47,803 bases of DNA from Draconibacterium sp. (GTDB lineage: Bacteria > Bacteroidota > Bacteroidia > Bacteroidales > Prolixibacteraceae), in NCBI GenBank assembly GCA_011620585.1, contig WOYV01000098.1, positions 1 to 47,803 of the forward strand, read 5' to 3'. Of the stretch, positions 4,406 through 24,661 are shown piece by piece. The notes beneath the pieces were generated by a model, which did no database searches, was not told where the DNA came from, and saw only the letters and a list, made by a program, of their open reading frames with translations. The translations under genes and the position numbers were made by a program. Positions within the stretch are counted from its first letter, which is position 1. Every line of letters begins with the position of its first letter.

Positions 4406-4557
4406 AAGCTAAAATTCAGAAAAAGAAAAAAATATTTATTTCATGCGTTACTTCCATTTCAATCTCCGTCTAAATGAAAATCTCGGACATAAATATATTA
4501 CCAACGAATGTAATAATTGGCTCCGAAATTAAATATGAAATAATACTAAGATTTAGG

Positions 4558-18001: not shown

Positions 18002-19426
18002 TTATTCATCAAAAAATCCTTTATCAAAATTCACGAGGAACAATTTTTCAGTGGGCCGGGTAAAAGCGGTGTACAGCCAGCGGTAATATTCTTTATCCAA
18101 CATATCTTCCACGAGGTACCCATGATCGACAAAAACAGCTTTCCATTGCCCTCCCTGTGCTTTGTGACAGGTAAGCGCATATGCATATTTGACTTGAAGG
18201 GCATTGAAATAAGGATTTTCGCGAATCTTTTTCCAGCGCTCGCGTTTGTTCCGGATATCCGTATAATCTTCCGACACGGCATCGAAAAGCTGCCGGTTTT
18301 GATCGGATGAAAAGGAAGCCGACTCGAGTGTTAATGTTTCCAAAAATATTTTGCAATCGAGTTCAACGTTATCATAATCAATAAAACGCAGGCTCACATT
18401 GGCAAACCGGAAACCATACAATTCTTCGTAACCACGAATGCCAATAATCTCGGCTATATCGCCATTCGCAATAAAATCAATACCCGAGTCTTCCACCGGC
18501 CAGAAATAATTATTCTTCACCACCATCAGTAAATCGCCGCGTTCGATTTCATTTTCTTTATAAAGAATAGAACCGCGGATACCCTTGTTAAAAATATTGG
18601 CCCGTTTATTCGAACGGGTAACCACTGTAGTTTCAAAAATCCCGTATTTGTCGTAACAGCCCGAAATTGTCTCGATCAAATCTGCTCCTGAAACCTGTCT
18701 CAAATCATCAAATCCTTCCAATTCTATCGAAAAAAATCCACTGTTTTCTCCTTTAGCGCCCAGTAAATTCCTGATATTGGTGGCATTGTATAATATTCCA
18801 GAATCTTGTGCCTGCCGCACTACTTCTGTCAGTTCAACCGTTTTTACACTAAAACCCGAATTTTCGAGTACCGAAGGTTCCAGTGCAGGACTAACAGTTA
18901 AGCCAACCGGAGGAAGCTGTGCGGTATCTCCTACCAAAATCAGGCGACAGTTTTCACCTGAATACACATACTCCAGCAAATCGTCGAGCAGTCGTCCACT
19001 TCCAAAAACCGAACCTCCTGATGATGAATCCGGGATCATTGAGGCTTCGTCGACAATAAAATATGTGTTCTTAAACAAGTTTTTGTCGAGCACAAAACGT
19101 CCCATTCCATCGGCCGACGACTTCTGTCGGTAGATACTTTTGTGAATTGTAAATGCTGGTTTGCCCGTGTAGCCAGCCATTACCTTGGCTGCACGCCCGG
19201 TGGGGGCCATCAGCACCGAACGAATTTTTAACATATCCAAAACTTGTGTTAACGAAAAAATCATGGTCGTCTTTCCAGTTCCTGCATAACCTTTGATCAA
19301 CATGATAGTGCCGGGCTGATCGGAAACAATATATCCGGCCAAAACATCAATCAATCGTTGTTGACTTTCGGTAGGCGGGAAAGGCAGTTTTTGAGCCAAT
19401 AAGGTATTTAAGTGATTTTTGATCAT
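18002..19426 (-). CDS. RecD-like ATP-dependent DNA helicase
   Basis: A 474-residue superfamily 1 helicase. The start is taken at the ATG giving MIKNHLNTLL; a TTG three codons upstream is also possible. Walker A is GYAGTGKTT near residue 46. The Walker B region is YFIVDEASMI near 130, and motif III is LVGDTAQLPPVG near 165. Near the C-terminus YALTCHKAQGGQWKAVFVD marks a UvrD_C_2 domain, followed by YTAFTRPTEKLFL. It lacks the N-terminal region of RecD2 and no recB or recC is nearby, so it is a short stand-alone RecD/Pif1-like enzyme, common in Bacteroidota. Its DNA substrate is not known. Confidence 0.9.
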   Translation of the reverse strand: MIKNHLNTLLAQKLPFPPTESQQRLIDVLAGYIVSDQPGTIMLIKGYAGTGKTTMIFSLTQVLDMLKIRSVLMAPTGRAAKVMAGYTGKPAFTIHKSIYRQKSSADGMGRFVLDKNLFKNTYFIVDEASMIPDSSSGGSVFGSGRLLDDLLEYVYSGENCRLILVGDTAQLPPVGLTVSPALEPSVLENSGFSVKTVELTEVVRQAQDSGILYNATNIRNLLGAKGENSGFFSIELEGFDDLRQVSGADLIETISGCYDKYGIFETTVVTRSNKRANIFNKGIRGSILYKENEIERGDLLMVVKNNYFWPVEDSGIDFIANGDIAEIIGIRGYEELYGFRFANVSLRFIDYDNVELDCKIFLETLTLESASFSSDQNRQLFDAVSEDYTDIRNKRERWKKIRENPYFNALQVKYAYALTCHKAQGGQWKAVFVDHGYLVEDMLDKEYYRWLYTAFTRPTEKLFLVNFDKGFFDE

Positions 19427-19474
19427 GCAAGCCAAAATAACGTTCGGTAAAGGAAGCTAATTTATTTTTTTTTT

Positions 19475-19482
19475 TAAATTTG
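19475..19482 (+). promoter_or_regulatory. -7 promoter box of the DUF3822-rsmD group
   Basis: TAAATTTG matches TAnnTTTG and lies 36 bases before the ATG at 19519, in the divergent gap after the helicase gene. An uninterrupted T run just upstream replaces the usual -33 box. Confidence 0.55.
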
Positions 19483-19518: not shown

Positions 19519-20151
19519 ATGAGAACCGTTATTCAGATCTTACTAGTTATTGCAGCAGTTGTCCTTTCTTATTTTATTTATCAAAGTATTCAGCGTCCGA
19601 TTCAATTTGAAAAAGCAAAGGAAGCACGTTACGAAGCAACAGTTGCAAAATTGAAAGATATTCGAAAAGCAGAACTCGCTTATAAAAATATTTACGGGCA
19701 ATTTACCGGAAGTTGGGATACACTGATCAACTTTATATTGCATGATTCGCTTAGAAACGTGAAAGCTATTGGAGAATTGACCGATAGTATGATCGAAGCC
19801 AAAATTACTGAAAAGAAAGCTATTCAAATGGGATTGATCATCCGTGATACCATCCGTGAGTCAGTACTCGAATCGTTATTCGGCAAAAACTACGATGCCA
19901 ATAGTTTAAAATATGTTCCGGCCCCGGGAGAACCAACCGAATTCCACCTTGCACAGACTATTATTACCACAGGCTCAGGAATTAAAGTTCCTGTTTTCGA
20001 GGCAAAAGCACACAACAATGTGATACTTCGTGGTTTAGACGAGCAATTAATTATTAACTTGAACGATCAACTCAGGACCAACGAAAAATATCCGGGACTG
20101 AAAGTAGGTTCAATAACCGAGACAAATAACAACGCCGGTAACTGGGAGTAA
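19519..20151 (+). CDS. Conserved hypothetical membrane-anchored protein
   Basis: A 210-residue protein with one N-terminal membrane segment (about residues 4-22, VIQILLVIAAVVLSYFIYQ). A helical stretch containing EKAKEARYEATVAKLKDIRKAELAY follows. The helix plus AYKNIYGQFTGSWDTLINFI resembles the pseudopilin-like layout of a hydrophobic helix followed by a small globular domain, but there is no prepilin cleavage site. No function is recognised. It is the first gene of a three-gene group with a DUF3822 protein (5-base gap) and rsmD (3-base gap). Confidence 0.8.
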   Translation: MRTVIQILLVIAAVVLSYFIYQSIQRPIQFEKAKEARYEATVAKLKDIRKAELAYKNIYGQFTGSWDTLINFILHDSLRNVKAIGELTDSMIEAKITEKKAIQMGLIIRDTIRESVLESLFGKNYDANSLKYVPAPGEPTEFHLAQTIITTGSGIKVPVFEAKAHNNVILRGLDEQLIINLNDQLRTNEKYPGLKVGSITETNNNAGNWE

Positions 20152-22290: not shown

Positions 22291-22926
22291 ATGGAACTCG
22301 AATCGGTTAGAAGAGAATACAAACGGGCTGAACTCAGTGAAACAGATATTGAGAAACAGCCTATCCTGCTTTTTGAAAAGTGGATGAAAGAAGCGTTGGC
22401 ATCGAACCCTAATGATGCAACTTCAGTGGCGTTAACTACAATTGGAATGGATGGATTTCCGCAATCCCGGATTGTTTTGCTGAAAAATTACAGTGATGAG
22501 GGTTTTGTATTTTTCACCAACTACCACAGTCAAAAAGGTCGGGCAATTGAAAACGATGCCCGCGTTGGAATGCACTTTTTTTGGCCCGAGCTCGAACGTC
22601 AGGTCCGTATTTCGGGTTTAGCCAAAAAAACAAACAAAGACGTCTCTGATGAATATTTTCATTCGCGGCCGTTTGACAGCCAGGTTGCCGCGGCCATATC
22701 CGGACAAAGTACCGAAGTGGCGAACCGGGCTTTTCTCGAAAACAAATTTCAGGAACTCAAAAATGAACTTCACGGAAAATATCCTGAACGACCTAAAAAC
22801 TGGGGTGGATATTTGGTAAAACCTGTGAAATTTGAATTTTGGCAGGGCCGCGAAAACCGGCTTCACGACAGGATCGTTTTTGAAAAAGAGTCGGATACCT
22901 GGGAAATTAAACGGCTGGCGCCTTAA
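22291..22926 (+). CDS. pdxH: Pyridoxamine/pyridoxine 5'-phosphate oxidase
   Basis: A 211-residue FMN-dependent oxidase making pyridoxal 5'-phosphate. Family marks include PNDATSVALTTIGMDGFPQSRIVLLK (about residues 40-65), GFVFFTNYHSQKGRAI near 75 and the C-terminal FWQGRENRLHDRI motif binding FMN and substrate. Its stop codon shares the palindrome TTAA (22923-22926) with the stop of dnaX on the other strand, so the two genes overlap by 4 bases tail to tail. The identification is firm. Confidence 0.96.
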   Translation: MELESVRREYKRAELSETDIEKQPILLFEKWMKEALASNPNDATSVALTTIGMDGFPQSRIVLLKNYSDEGFVFFTNYHSQKGRAIENDARVGMHFFWPELERQVRISGLAKKTNKDVSDEYFHSRPFDSQVAAAISGQSTEVANRAFLENKFQELKNELHGKYPERPKNWGGYLVKPVKFEFWQGRENRLHDRIVFEKESDTWEIKRLAP

Positions 22927-24661
22927 AAATCGAGGTTAAGCTTTTGTTTCAACAAAGCAAGGCTTGGGTTTTTACCTGCCATTTCCTGGTACTTTTCGAT
23001 ATCTGAATAGATTACCTTTTCGCGAATGATTTCGGCAACAATAGTCTTGAAATTTATATTCGAATTGCGAAGTTCCTTTCTTAAAAACGAAACCAACTCG
23101 GGCCTGACATCCATCAGTAAATCTTCCTGAATTCGGTTGTCTATTTCCAGGATTAAAGTATAATCTTCCTGTATTTTAGGAATAGTTGAAAGCGTGGCTT
23201 TAATACTTGGCCGATCCTCGTAACGTGTAAGAAACTCATTCCACTTCACCGTCAGTTCTTCTACGGTAAACGGTTCTTCATCGCCGGCTTTCGAATATAT
23301 TTCGTGTTGTTCCTTGGCCGAAAGTTTCTTTTCGTCATCAAACTCGCCACGTAGTGCTTTACTAATCGATGGCGTACTGTTTCCGGCGCTCCCTCTTCGT
23401 ACGGTCCGTTTAGGTGGCGTGTTTACCGGAGTTTCTGTGGATTTTTCAGGCGCCGGCCTTTTTACCGGTTCGTTTTGAGCCGGATTTGTTTGAGTTACAT
23501 TTTCAGGAATTTCTTTGCCTGGGAAAATGGGCCCGAGAATATCGTCGCTTTCGTCAGCTATTTTTTTTTTAAGGTTAGCTGCGCTATCCTAATCAGGGCC
23601 AGTTCTATCAGCAAACGTTTATTCTGACTTGCTTTAAAATTCAAATCACTGTCGTTTGCAATTTGCAGCGCCTCAAGCAAAAAATCACTGTTGGCAATTG
23701 CAGCCTGATTTTTGTATTTTTCCTTGATCTCGCCGCCCACTTCGAGCAGTTGAATCGTTACCGGATCTTTGCAAACCAGTAAATCGCGGAAATGACTGCT
23801 TAACCCATTTATAAAATGATGGCCATCGAAACCATGGTTCAAAATATCGTTAAAAATGAGAAGGACTTCAGTAACATTGTTTTTCAGAAACTCATCGACC
23901 AACCTGAAATAATAATCGTAATCGAGCACATTCAGATTGGTGATTACATCCTGGTAAGTAATTTTCTTTCCTGAAAAACTAACTATCTGATCGAAAATAG
24001 AGAGCGCGTCACGCATGGCGCCGTCGGCTTTCTGTGCAATAATATTCACGCCTTCGCCTTCAATCTCAACTCCTTCGCTTTTCGCTACATATTCGAGATA
24101 ATCAGAAATGTCGTCCACACCAATCCGGTTAAAGTCGAAAATCTGACAACGCGATAAGATGGTAGGAATGATCTTGTGTTTTTCGGTAGTAGCCAAAATA
24201 AAAATGGCATGTTTTGGCGGTTCTTCAAGTGTTTTCAAAAAAGCATTGAAAGCTGCCGACGACAACATGTGCACCTCGTCGATAATATACACGCTGTATT
24301 TTCCCATTTGCGGGGGAACTCTAACCTGGTCTGTCAAACTGCGGATATCGTCTACCGAATTGTTCGAAGCAGCGTCAAGCTCATGAATATTAAATGATCG
24401 GCTGGTATTGAATGACTTACACGATTCGCATTCGTTACAGGCTTCAGTTTCAGCAGTAAGATTGGTACAATTTATTGTTTTGGCAAAAATACGGGCACAA
24501 GTGGTCTTCCCTACTCCGCGCGGACCGCAAAACAAATAAGCATGCGCCAGTTGTTTGCTTTTGATCGCGTTTTTCAGGGTAGCGGTAATCGACGATTGAG
24601 CGACTACGGTTTCGAACGAATCGGGCCTGTATTTCCTAGCTGATACAATAAAATTCTCCAT
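22923..24661 (-). CDS. dnaX: DNA polymerase III subunit gamma/tau, interrupted by a -1 frameshift
   Basis: The clamp-loader ATPase. The first frame (24661-23558, 367 residues) holds clamp-loader domains I-III: Walker A GPRGVGKTT at 46-54, four zinc-binding cysteines at about 64-80 (CNECESC), and DEVHMLS near 127. It ends LTLKKK then TAG, immediately after an A10 run. The remaining gene, with no stop from 23561 to 22923, is in the -1 frame: a Pro/Glu-rich linker and then the tau C-terminal domain including TVKWNEFL and LRKELRNSNINF. A -1 shift would give a 579-residue tau, a normal family length. The short product would correspond to gamma. This may be programmed, or an A11 miscalled as A10. 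Confidence 0.9.
23561..23570 (-). promoter_or_regulatory. A10 slippage site within dnaX
   Basis: The coding strand reads TTA followed by ten A and then TAG, so the zero frame ends right after three lysine codons. A slip of one base back on AAA AAA gives ATA GCT GAC and opens the 212-codon tau extension. The run suits either ribosomal -1 slippage or transcriptional slippage as in Thermus dnaX. A weak upstream AGGA (in TTAGGATAG) and a weak downstream GGG/CCC pairing exist, but no strong stimulatory stem is seen. Confidence 0.6.

Follow-up and report, generated by a model that had tools for sequence, protein, structure and literature searches.

A conserved run of ten A at the domain III/IV boundary of dnaX in Bacteroidia as a candidate transcriptional-slippage site

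The window, i.e. the whole stretch of DNA analysed here, comprises 47,803 nucleotides from a Draconibacterium genome. Its minus strand carries a dnaX gene that is divided between two reading frames. The zero frame (23558..24661, minus strand) starts with ATG at 24661, extends over 367 codons to 23561 and ends with ...CC TTA AAA AAA AAA TAG. Its stop codon TAG (23558..23560, minus strand) directly adjoins a run of ten A, preceded by CTT, at the domain III/IV boundary (TT-A10-TAG; 23561..23570, minus strand), which its sequence and conservation mark as the candidate slippage site. After the run the -1 frame (22923..23561, minus strand) reads ATA GCT GAC ... and stays open for 212 codons (23561-22926) until TAA at 22923-22925; it encodes the tau linker and C-terminal part and requires a net shift by one base at the run to be reached. 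The third frame is closed by a TGA (23554..23556, minus strand), so that the two off-frames of the window end 0 and 2 codons past the run. As context only, a convergent ORF resembling pyridoxamine 5'-phosphate oxidase (22291..22926, plus strand) shares its last 4 bases with the end of the tau frame.

Pfam assigns the clamp-loader ATPase, the lid and domain III (residues 243-362) to the zero-frame protein (P0001), which identifies it as a gamma-like clamp-loader protein of domains I-III. The NCBIfam DnaX model NF011531 (614 positions) is matched by this protein at positions 1-365 and by the -1 product (P0003) at positions 429-612. Since both match one profile, they are successive parts of a single DnaX. 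The sequence-only reading of the locus had described a 367-residue protein with domains I-III that stops right after TTA and ten A, followed by 212 stop-free codons of tau in the -1 frame; both descriptions are borne out by the sequence and the profile matches, and its figure of about 579 residues for tau fits 367+212. Along its entire 212 residues the -1 product shares 58% identity with the corresponding region in a close relative whose gene is continuous with A11 (G021, locus L006). Among 55 genes of the genus and family, differences from the window in the -1 frame amount, per 100 codons, to 41 at the first, 31 at the second and 63 at the third codon position, a pattern that indicates protein-level constraint (purifying selection) on this frame. 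Separate translation of the tau part by re-initiation was considered and is not favoured: no Met occurs in the -1 product before residue 150, and the earliest possible start codon of the tau frame (ATG, GTG or TTG) is a GTG at 23249, about 104 codons past the junction.

The genome (3.94 Mb, 132 contigs, 99.7% complete) contains a single dnaX, and no intact second copy was found in it. A or T runs of at least 10 occur at 17 distinct places in the 3.94 Mb (26 overlapping matches). Besides dnaX, just one sense-strand run among the 17 is flanked by more than 100 open codons on each side, which places the A10 of dnaX beyond chance expectation. This other sense-strand A10 (L447, contig C98:5807-5816) has 157 open codons before and 169 after it. 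Within the window itself there is also a T11 run (A11 on the minus strand) at 19465-19475; it lies between the divergent ORFs 18002-19435 (minus strand) and 19519-20151 (plus strand) and is probably intergenic.

Close relatives had been named in the sequence-only reading as the place to look for conservation of the run and its stop. Our search of the nearer relatives covered 101 genomes, that of the window included. The dnaX genes were anchored by tblastn. From the genus, 37 genomes were sampled, 36 of which had the locus and 35 a gene reaching the junction (window included). The run is A10 in 32 of these 35 genes, A11 in two, in which tau is continuous, and A9 in one, which also contains stops and needs the other shift. 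Genomes with A10 listed with a single contig include G008, G013, G030, G032 and G034. Where the frame is resolved (34 genus genes), the stop adjoining the run is kept throughout (TAG in 33, TAA in one), as is the second stop at the position of the window's TGA (34/34), which follows the first in the context CTGA, TTGA, ATGA or TTAA. The TAG arises from a tau-frame Ile codon, for which all 31 -1-type genes of the genus use the uncommon ATA (14% of the codons for Ile across domains I-III); A, V, N or D follows as the next residue. In other genera of the family (24 genomes) a run of at least nine was present in 22 of 22 genes fetched. A few close relatives have A11 with continuous tau or A9 with the other shift (L006 in G021, L040 in G016, L050 in G059 and L020 in G006); these represent true changes of ground state or else faulty assembly of single genomes. 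G023 (contig ending before the junction) as well as G051 and G252 (partial) were set aside, and G026, G054, G066, G071, G077, G094, G258, G260 and G315 gave no strong dnaX match.

We extended the sample to 145 genomes of the order, 36 from other orders of the class, 18 from elsewhere in the phylum and 80 named loci from a contig collection (the best 80 of at least 593), some of which may be of the same species as genomes already included. The 18 phylum genomes were chosen by hand from 109 with a match among 111 drawn outside the class, and their counts are therefore not a sample. Runs of at least nine A within 60 codons of the domain III anchor were found in 68/145 genes of the order, 35/36 of the other orders, 11/18 of the hand-picked phylum genomes and 60/80 of the best-matching named loci, counts that are not independent because related species have ancestry in common. 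Species of Pedobacter, Mucilaginibacter, Hymenobacter, Sphingobacterium, Aquimarina and others have the same run. In 337 genes the junction (60,379 nt) contained 234 such runs, compared with 6 in the remaining 527,119 nt of the same genes. The longest run located 20-55 codons after the anchor measured 9-13 A in 228 of the 337 genes (10 in 171, 9 in 16, 11 in 35, 12-13 in 6), compared with 7-8 in only 12; it was 6 in 10 genes and shorter in 87. The lysine-rich protein explains part of this, since synonymous resampling with real codon use still produced a run of at least nine in 39.5%. According to the sequence-only reading, an uninterrupted frame lacking the A run in relatives would have pointed to an error or a private mutation. 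Such genes do occur in the order, where 77 of 145 have no run of at least nine, but there are none among the junction-reaching genes from the window's genus and family (0/57). This distribution indicates lineage-specific loss. In one Bacteroidales dnaX without A-run (L355) an in-frame TAG follows domain III and the same frame is open beyond it; this may be readthrough, error or decay.

Altogether 231 genes had the run, and a single tau frame could be assigned in 225 of them. The other six are cut by contig ends (L032, L307, L323) or have a longest frame that is closed after 40-95 codons (L072, L177, L218). Within 6 codons, stops end both non-tau frames in 196 of the 225 genes (87%); at 4,500 control positions the share was 13%, and synonymous resampling gave 31%. 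Shared ancestry enters into these figures as well. In the group in which tau is already in frame, which lies mostly outside the window's family, closure still amounts to 84.5%. With respect to the ground state the 225 genes fall into three groups: tau is in frame in 110, a -1 shift is needed in 105 and a +1 shift in 10. Two of the +1 genes (G287 and G359) belong to one genus and have the same flanks, and another (L020) could be an assembly error. A FastTree phylogeny based on the N-terminal part implies no fewer than 34 changes of ground state. When only the 169 genes with A10 are counted 19 changes remain, so errors in run length cannot be the sole source of the flips. Genes with tau as ground state likewise have a run of 10 in the majority (73/110). 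Relatives thus keep the run near 10 while the genomic reading frame flips between species.

Signals that accompany frameshifting elsewhere were looked for around the run. Downstream of the run in the window no hairpin was found above control level (z +0.9 for 68 nt, +0.7 for 51 nt). Across genes the downstream sequence is on average not more structured than controls, with two measures slightly above them: 16% of 204 genes fall in the most stable tenth, and stems occur in 20/225 compared with 6.2%. Upstream and downstream folding was compared in 199 of the 225 genes, with the own genus thinned to about one in four and short contigs skipped. In these 199 genes the upstream 36 nt had a mean z of -1.06 compared with -0.03 in control windows, and stems of at least 6 bp abutting the run on its 5' side are found in 47/225 genes compared with 3.3% of 9,000 control sites. 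Such stems are present in 1/34 genes of the window's genus and 1/22 of its family, and in 14/65, 12/35, 2/11 and 17/58 at the other levels. In the window the 5'-abutting hairpin is absent (upstream 36 nt, z +0.35). A conserved upstream hairpin in the window's family was rejected: RNAalifold gave no structure for 49 distinct sequences and stems were at control level, so the idea is kept for other lineages only. Among these, Flavobacteriaceae-like and other dnaX genes have a hairpin such as CCTCTATC..GATGGAG abutting the 5' side of A10 (L106, L107, L109, L111, L112, L117, L118, L327, L332, L351, L356, L358 and others). In the genus of the window slippage would thus have to rely on the A10 by itself, as it does on A9 in Thermus.

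No Shine-Dalgarno-like element was seen by eye shortly upstream of the run in the window, where an AGGA ends 16 nt before it; at this place genus genes have AGGA in 7/35 and CGGA in 25. The heptamer A_AAA_AAG is not in phase in the window, which has A_AAA_AAA followed by TAG instead, and it is in phase in 30/105 genes of the -1 type and 13/110 with tau as ground state. Among the 34 of 37 tRNA matches covered by ARAGORN, only tRNA-Lys(UUU) was found. The argument from two lysine tRNAs that the available text of a 2016 review makes for Thermus (PMC5009743) consequently does not apply here, and the ribosome may slip on the AAA codons.

We consider it probable (roughly 0.77) that the A10 run is a programmed transcriptional-slippage site, and we infer from the comparisons above a shift at the level of transcription and the production of both proteins, with roles as gamma and tau. 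RNA polymerase copying the run would produce mRNAs with differing numbers of A. An mRNA with 10 A (or 10 +/- 3n) would stop at the adjoining TAG and yield the gamma-like protein of 367 residues, and an mRNA with 11 A (or 8) would bring the downstream frame into register and yield tau of about 579 residues. An mRNA in the third frame would meet the TGA two codons later and likewise give a gamma-like protein. That gamma and tau arise by programmed recoding at A10, as the sequence-only reading supposed, is strongly supported by the conservation among relatives. That reading had left the choice between polymerase and ribosome open; here the comparative evidence favours transcriptional slippage over -1 ribosomal frameshifting, on account of the mixed direction of the shift, the stop that ends the third frame, the abrupt lower bound of run length at about nine A and the lack of a clear downstream structure. 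The accessible part of Antonov 2013 takes a shift direction that differs between orthologues as the mark of transcriptional realignment (PMC3711429), and among the orthologues studied here direction is not conserved (110 tau-ground, 105 -1, 10 +1). Against slippage, or at least not in its favour, are the single type of tRNA-Lys found, the missing 5' hairpins in the window's genus, the AAA codons that lie in phase for ribosomal -1 slipping, the genes with A_AAA_AAG in phase and the two slightly raised downstream measures. The share of the lysine-rich protein in producing the run and the lack of the run in about half of the order count on this side too.

The same in-phase codons (TTA AAA AAA AAA TAG) with their adjoining stop are what an explanation by programmed -1 ribosomal frameshifting on A_AAA_AAA would build on, an arrangement reversed with respect to E. 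coli in that tau would be the shifted product. It would agree with the single type of tRNA-Lys found, as in E. coli, and reversed dnaX cases are treated as seemingly ribosomal in the portion of the 2016 review available to us (PMC5009743). However, it is difficult to reconcile with the ten orthologues that need +1, even if L020 is possibly an assembly error, given the pair from one genus with the same flanks. Likewise it would not account for the early stop in the third frame, into which a -1 shift never leads, nor for the rarity of runs of 7-8, which would be sufficient for the heptamer. A clear downstream structure is not seen, and according to the available text of the review the E. coli ribosome shifts much less readily on A_AAA_AAA than on A_AAA_AAG (PMC5009743). 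We therefore regard ribosomal -1 frameshifting as unlikely.

Two further explanations place the cause in the DNA or in its reading. Long homopolymers in coding sequence are typical contingency loci, and replication slippage could toggle cells between tau-on and tau-off; A9, A10 and A11 are indeed all present in the genus. Yet phase variation of this kind is very improbable: genus members hardly depart from a length of 10 (32/35) and the free variation among close relatives is not observed, 10 is also the main length where tau is the ground state, and tau is expected to be essential, as judged from E. coli. Runs of ten A are also error-prone on some sequencing platforms, and G021 and G016 do have A11. 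A true A11 recorded as A10 had been put forward as the main alternative, and a private frameshift mutation was considered alongside it. A misread A11 is excluded as a general explanation by the exact A10 in 32/35 genus genes, single-contig genomes among them. The stops conserved in both off-frames of the 34 genus genes and the same split with A10 in other families argue against it as well, and we hold error or private mutation to be scarcely credible. Judged by sequence comparison, the A10 of dnaX is a real and conserved device of a known type, with neither sequencing error nor private mutation behind it. The run and its stop very probably let one gene make a short and a long clamp-loader protein.

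Other signals are found at the same junction where the A-run is missing. One family of the order, designated f2 (a match in 74 of 79 genomes), often has a split dnaX that lacks an A-run. The sequence AGGCAATC-N-C-R-GGAG is present in 32/32 loci (the 30 best-matching, L360-L389, plus L241 and L341), the zero-frame stop follows 0-5 codons later and tau lies in the +1 frame. The exact 15-base element was detected in 11 of 12 genomes searched, once in ten, twice in G061 and not in the remaining one. Of 20 further f2 loci chosen for other genera, 11 (L484-L489 and L498-L502) are split with tau in +1, one of them cut by a contig end; all 11 contain AGGCAA[TC]C. Nine are continuous, three of these with an A9-A10 run near the junction. 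Thus AGGCAA[TC]C and the +1 position of tau are kept in all 43 split f2 loci examined. In six of the 11 the stop follows directly after AGGCAATC[GA], which places the shift site at or before AGGCAATC. We consider the AGGCAA[TC]C element a candidate +1 ribosomal frameshift signal; its N-AGG-C resembles the CUU-AGG-C of yeast Ty1. In family f87, Bacteroidaceae-like by inferred name, dnaX was continuous and without A-run in the 30 loci read from 61 genomes (L126, L148, L400-L427). By eye, 29 of the 30 (not L402) have a short G+C-rich hairpin of the GGGC-NNN-GCCC type at the same junction, with compensating changes in several loci (e.g. GGCC-UAGC-GGCC and GUGGGC-UUCG-GCCCAC).

An extended form of the slippage reading, to which we give even chances, is that the dnaX junction of Bacteroidia is a standing slippage cassette. 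A10 and both off-frame stops would be kept while the genomic frame drifts among the three registers. Which subunit is encoded would be nearly neutral, since RNA polymerase would always supply mixed frames. After loss of the A-run other signals could appear, and the f2 element looks like a +1 ribosomal frameshift that has replaced slippage. For annotation this means that what looks like a broken replication gene, and may be labelled by automated pipelines as truncated or frameshifted, is in fact a device for recoding that has been conserved. Its occurrence in three ground states among orthologues moreover offers a natural experiment on whether polymerase or ribosome slips in each lineage and on the way in which one recoding mechanism takes the place of another at a single site. 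Direct testing is possible, as several relatives with the run bear isolate names.

Among known systems, the E. coli dnaX shares with the window the gene, the products as we deduce them and a shift on lysine AAA codons. According to the accessible part of Antonov 2013, its signal consists of A_AAA_AAG, an upstream Shine-Dalgarno-like element and a downstream hairpin, with tau as the unshifted product (PMC3711429). None of these features was found in the window, where the short product is the default of the zero frame, the reverse of E. coli. In some Bacteroidia lineages the hairpin abutting the 5' side of the run, e.g. CCTCTATC..GATGGAG-A10, recalls the stem-loop-mediated slippage reportedly described for IS630 of Roseiflexus by Penno in 2015. 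In contrast to that system, the 5' hairpin is absent in the window's genus (1/34) and the slippery sequence is A10 instead of T5C5. The T5C5 slippery sequence and the stem-loop-mediated transcriptional slippage of Roseiflexus IS630 are covered in the part of the 2016 review available to us, which also describes Thermus and the reversed dnaX cases (PMC5009743).

Closer to the window is Thermus thermophilus, whose dnaX is said to undergo transcriptional slippage (Larsen, 2000). As in Thermus, the window has a run of at least nine A at the gamma/tau boundary and both non-tau frames stop shortly after it. The ground state is tau in Thermus and gamma in the window, and the Thermus arrangement is found in some Bacteroidia relatives (110/225 genes with tau as ground state). 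The Thermus gene makes gamma and tau with a nine-A run and off-frames closed near it, as given in the available text of two papers (PMC1088944, PMC5009743). From the accessible part of Antonov 2013 (PMC3711429) come 17 two-ORF dnaX genes of 12 genera, 12 of them with poly-A and nine of these with 10 A, for which transcriptional realignment was predicted. The window agrees with them in that gamma is encoded in the zero frame and ends after domain III, tau needs -1 and about ten A lie between the two. Bacteroidota may already be on the genus list of that study. As far as its accessible part goes all 17 genes are -1, whereas the orthologues studied here also include tau-ground and +1-needed genes. 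In the open-licence literature no other paper on dnaX slippage or realignment in Bacteroidia was found by title or start of the abstract among the matches listed. New with respect to the open-licence literature searched, where we did not find it in print, is the class-wide reach of the run with flipping ground states; also new is a candidate +1 signal free of an A-run (AGGCAATC) at the same junction in another family. The dnaX of the window itself joins the known type represented by Thermus dnaX and the two-ORF dnaX genes of Antonov 2013.
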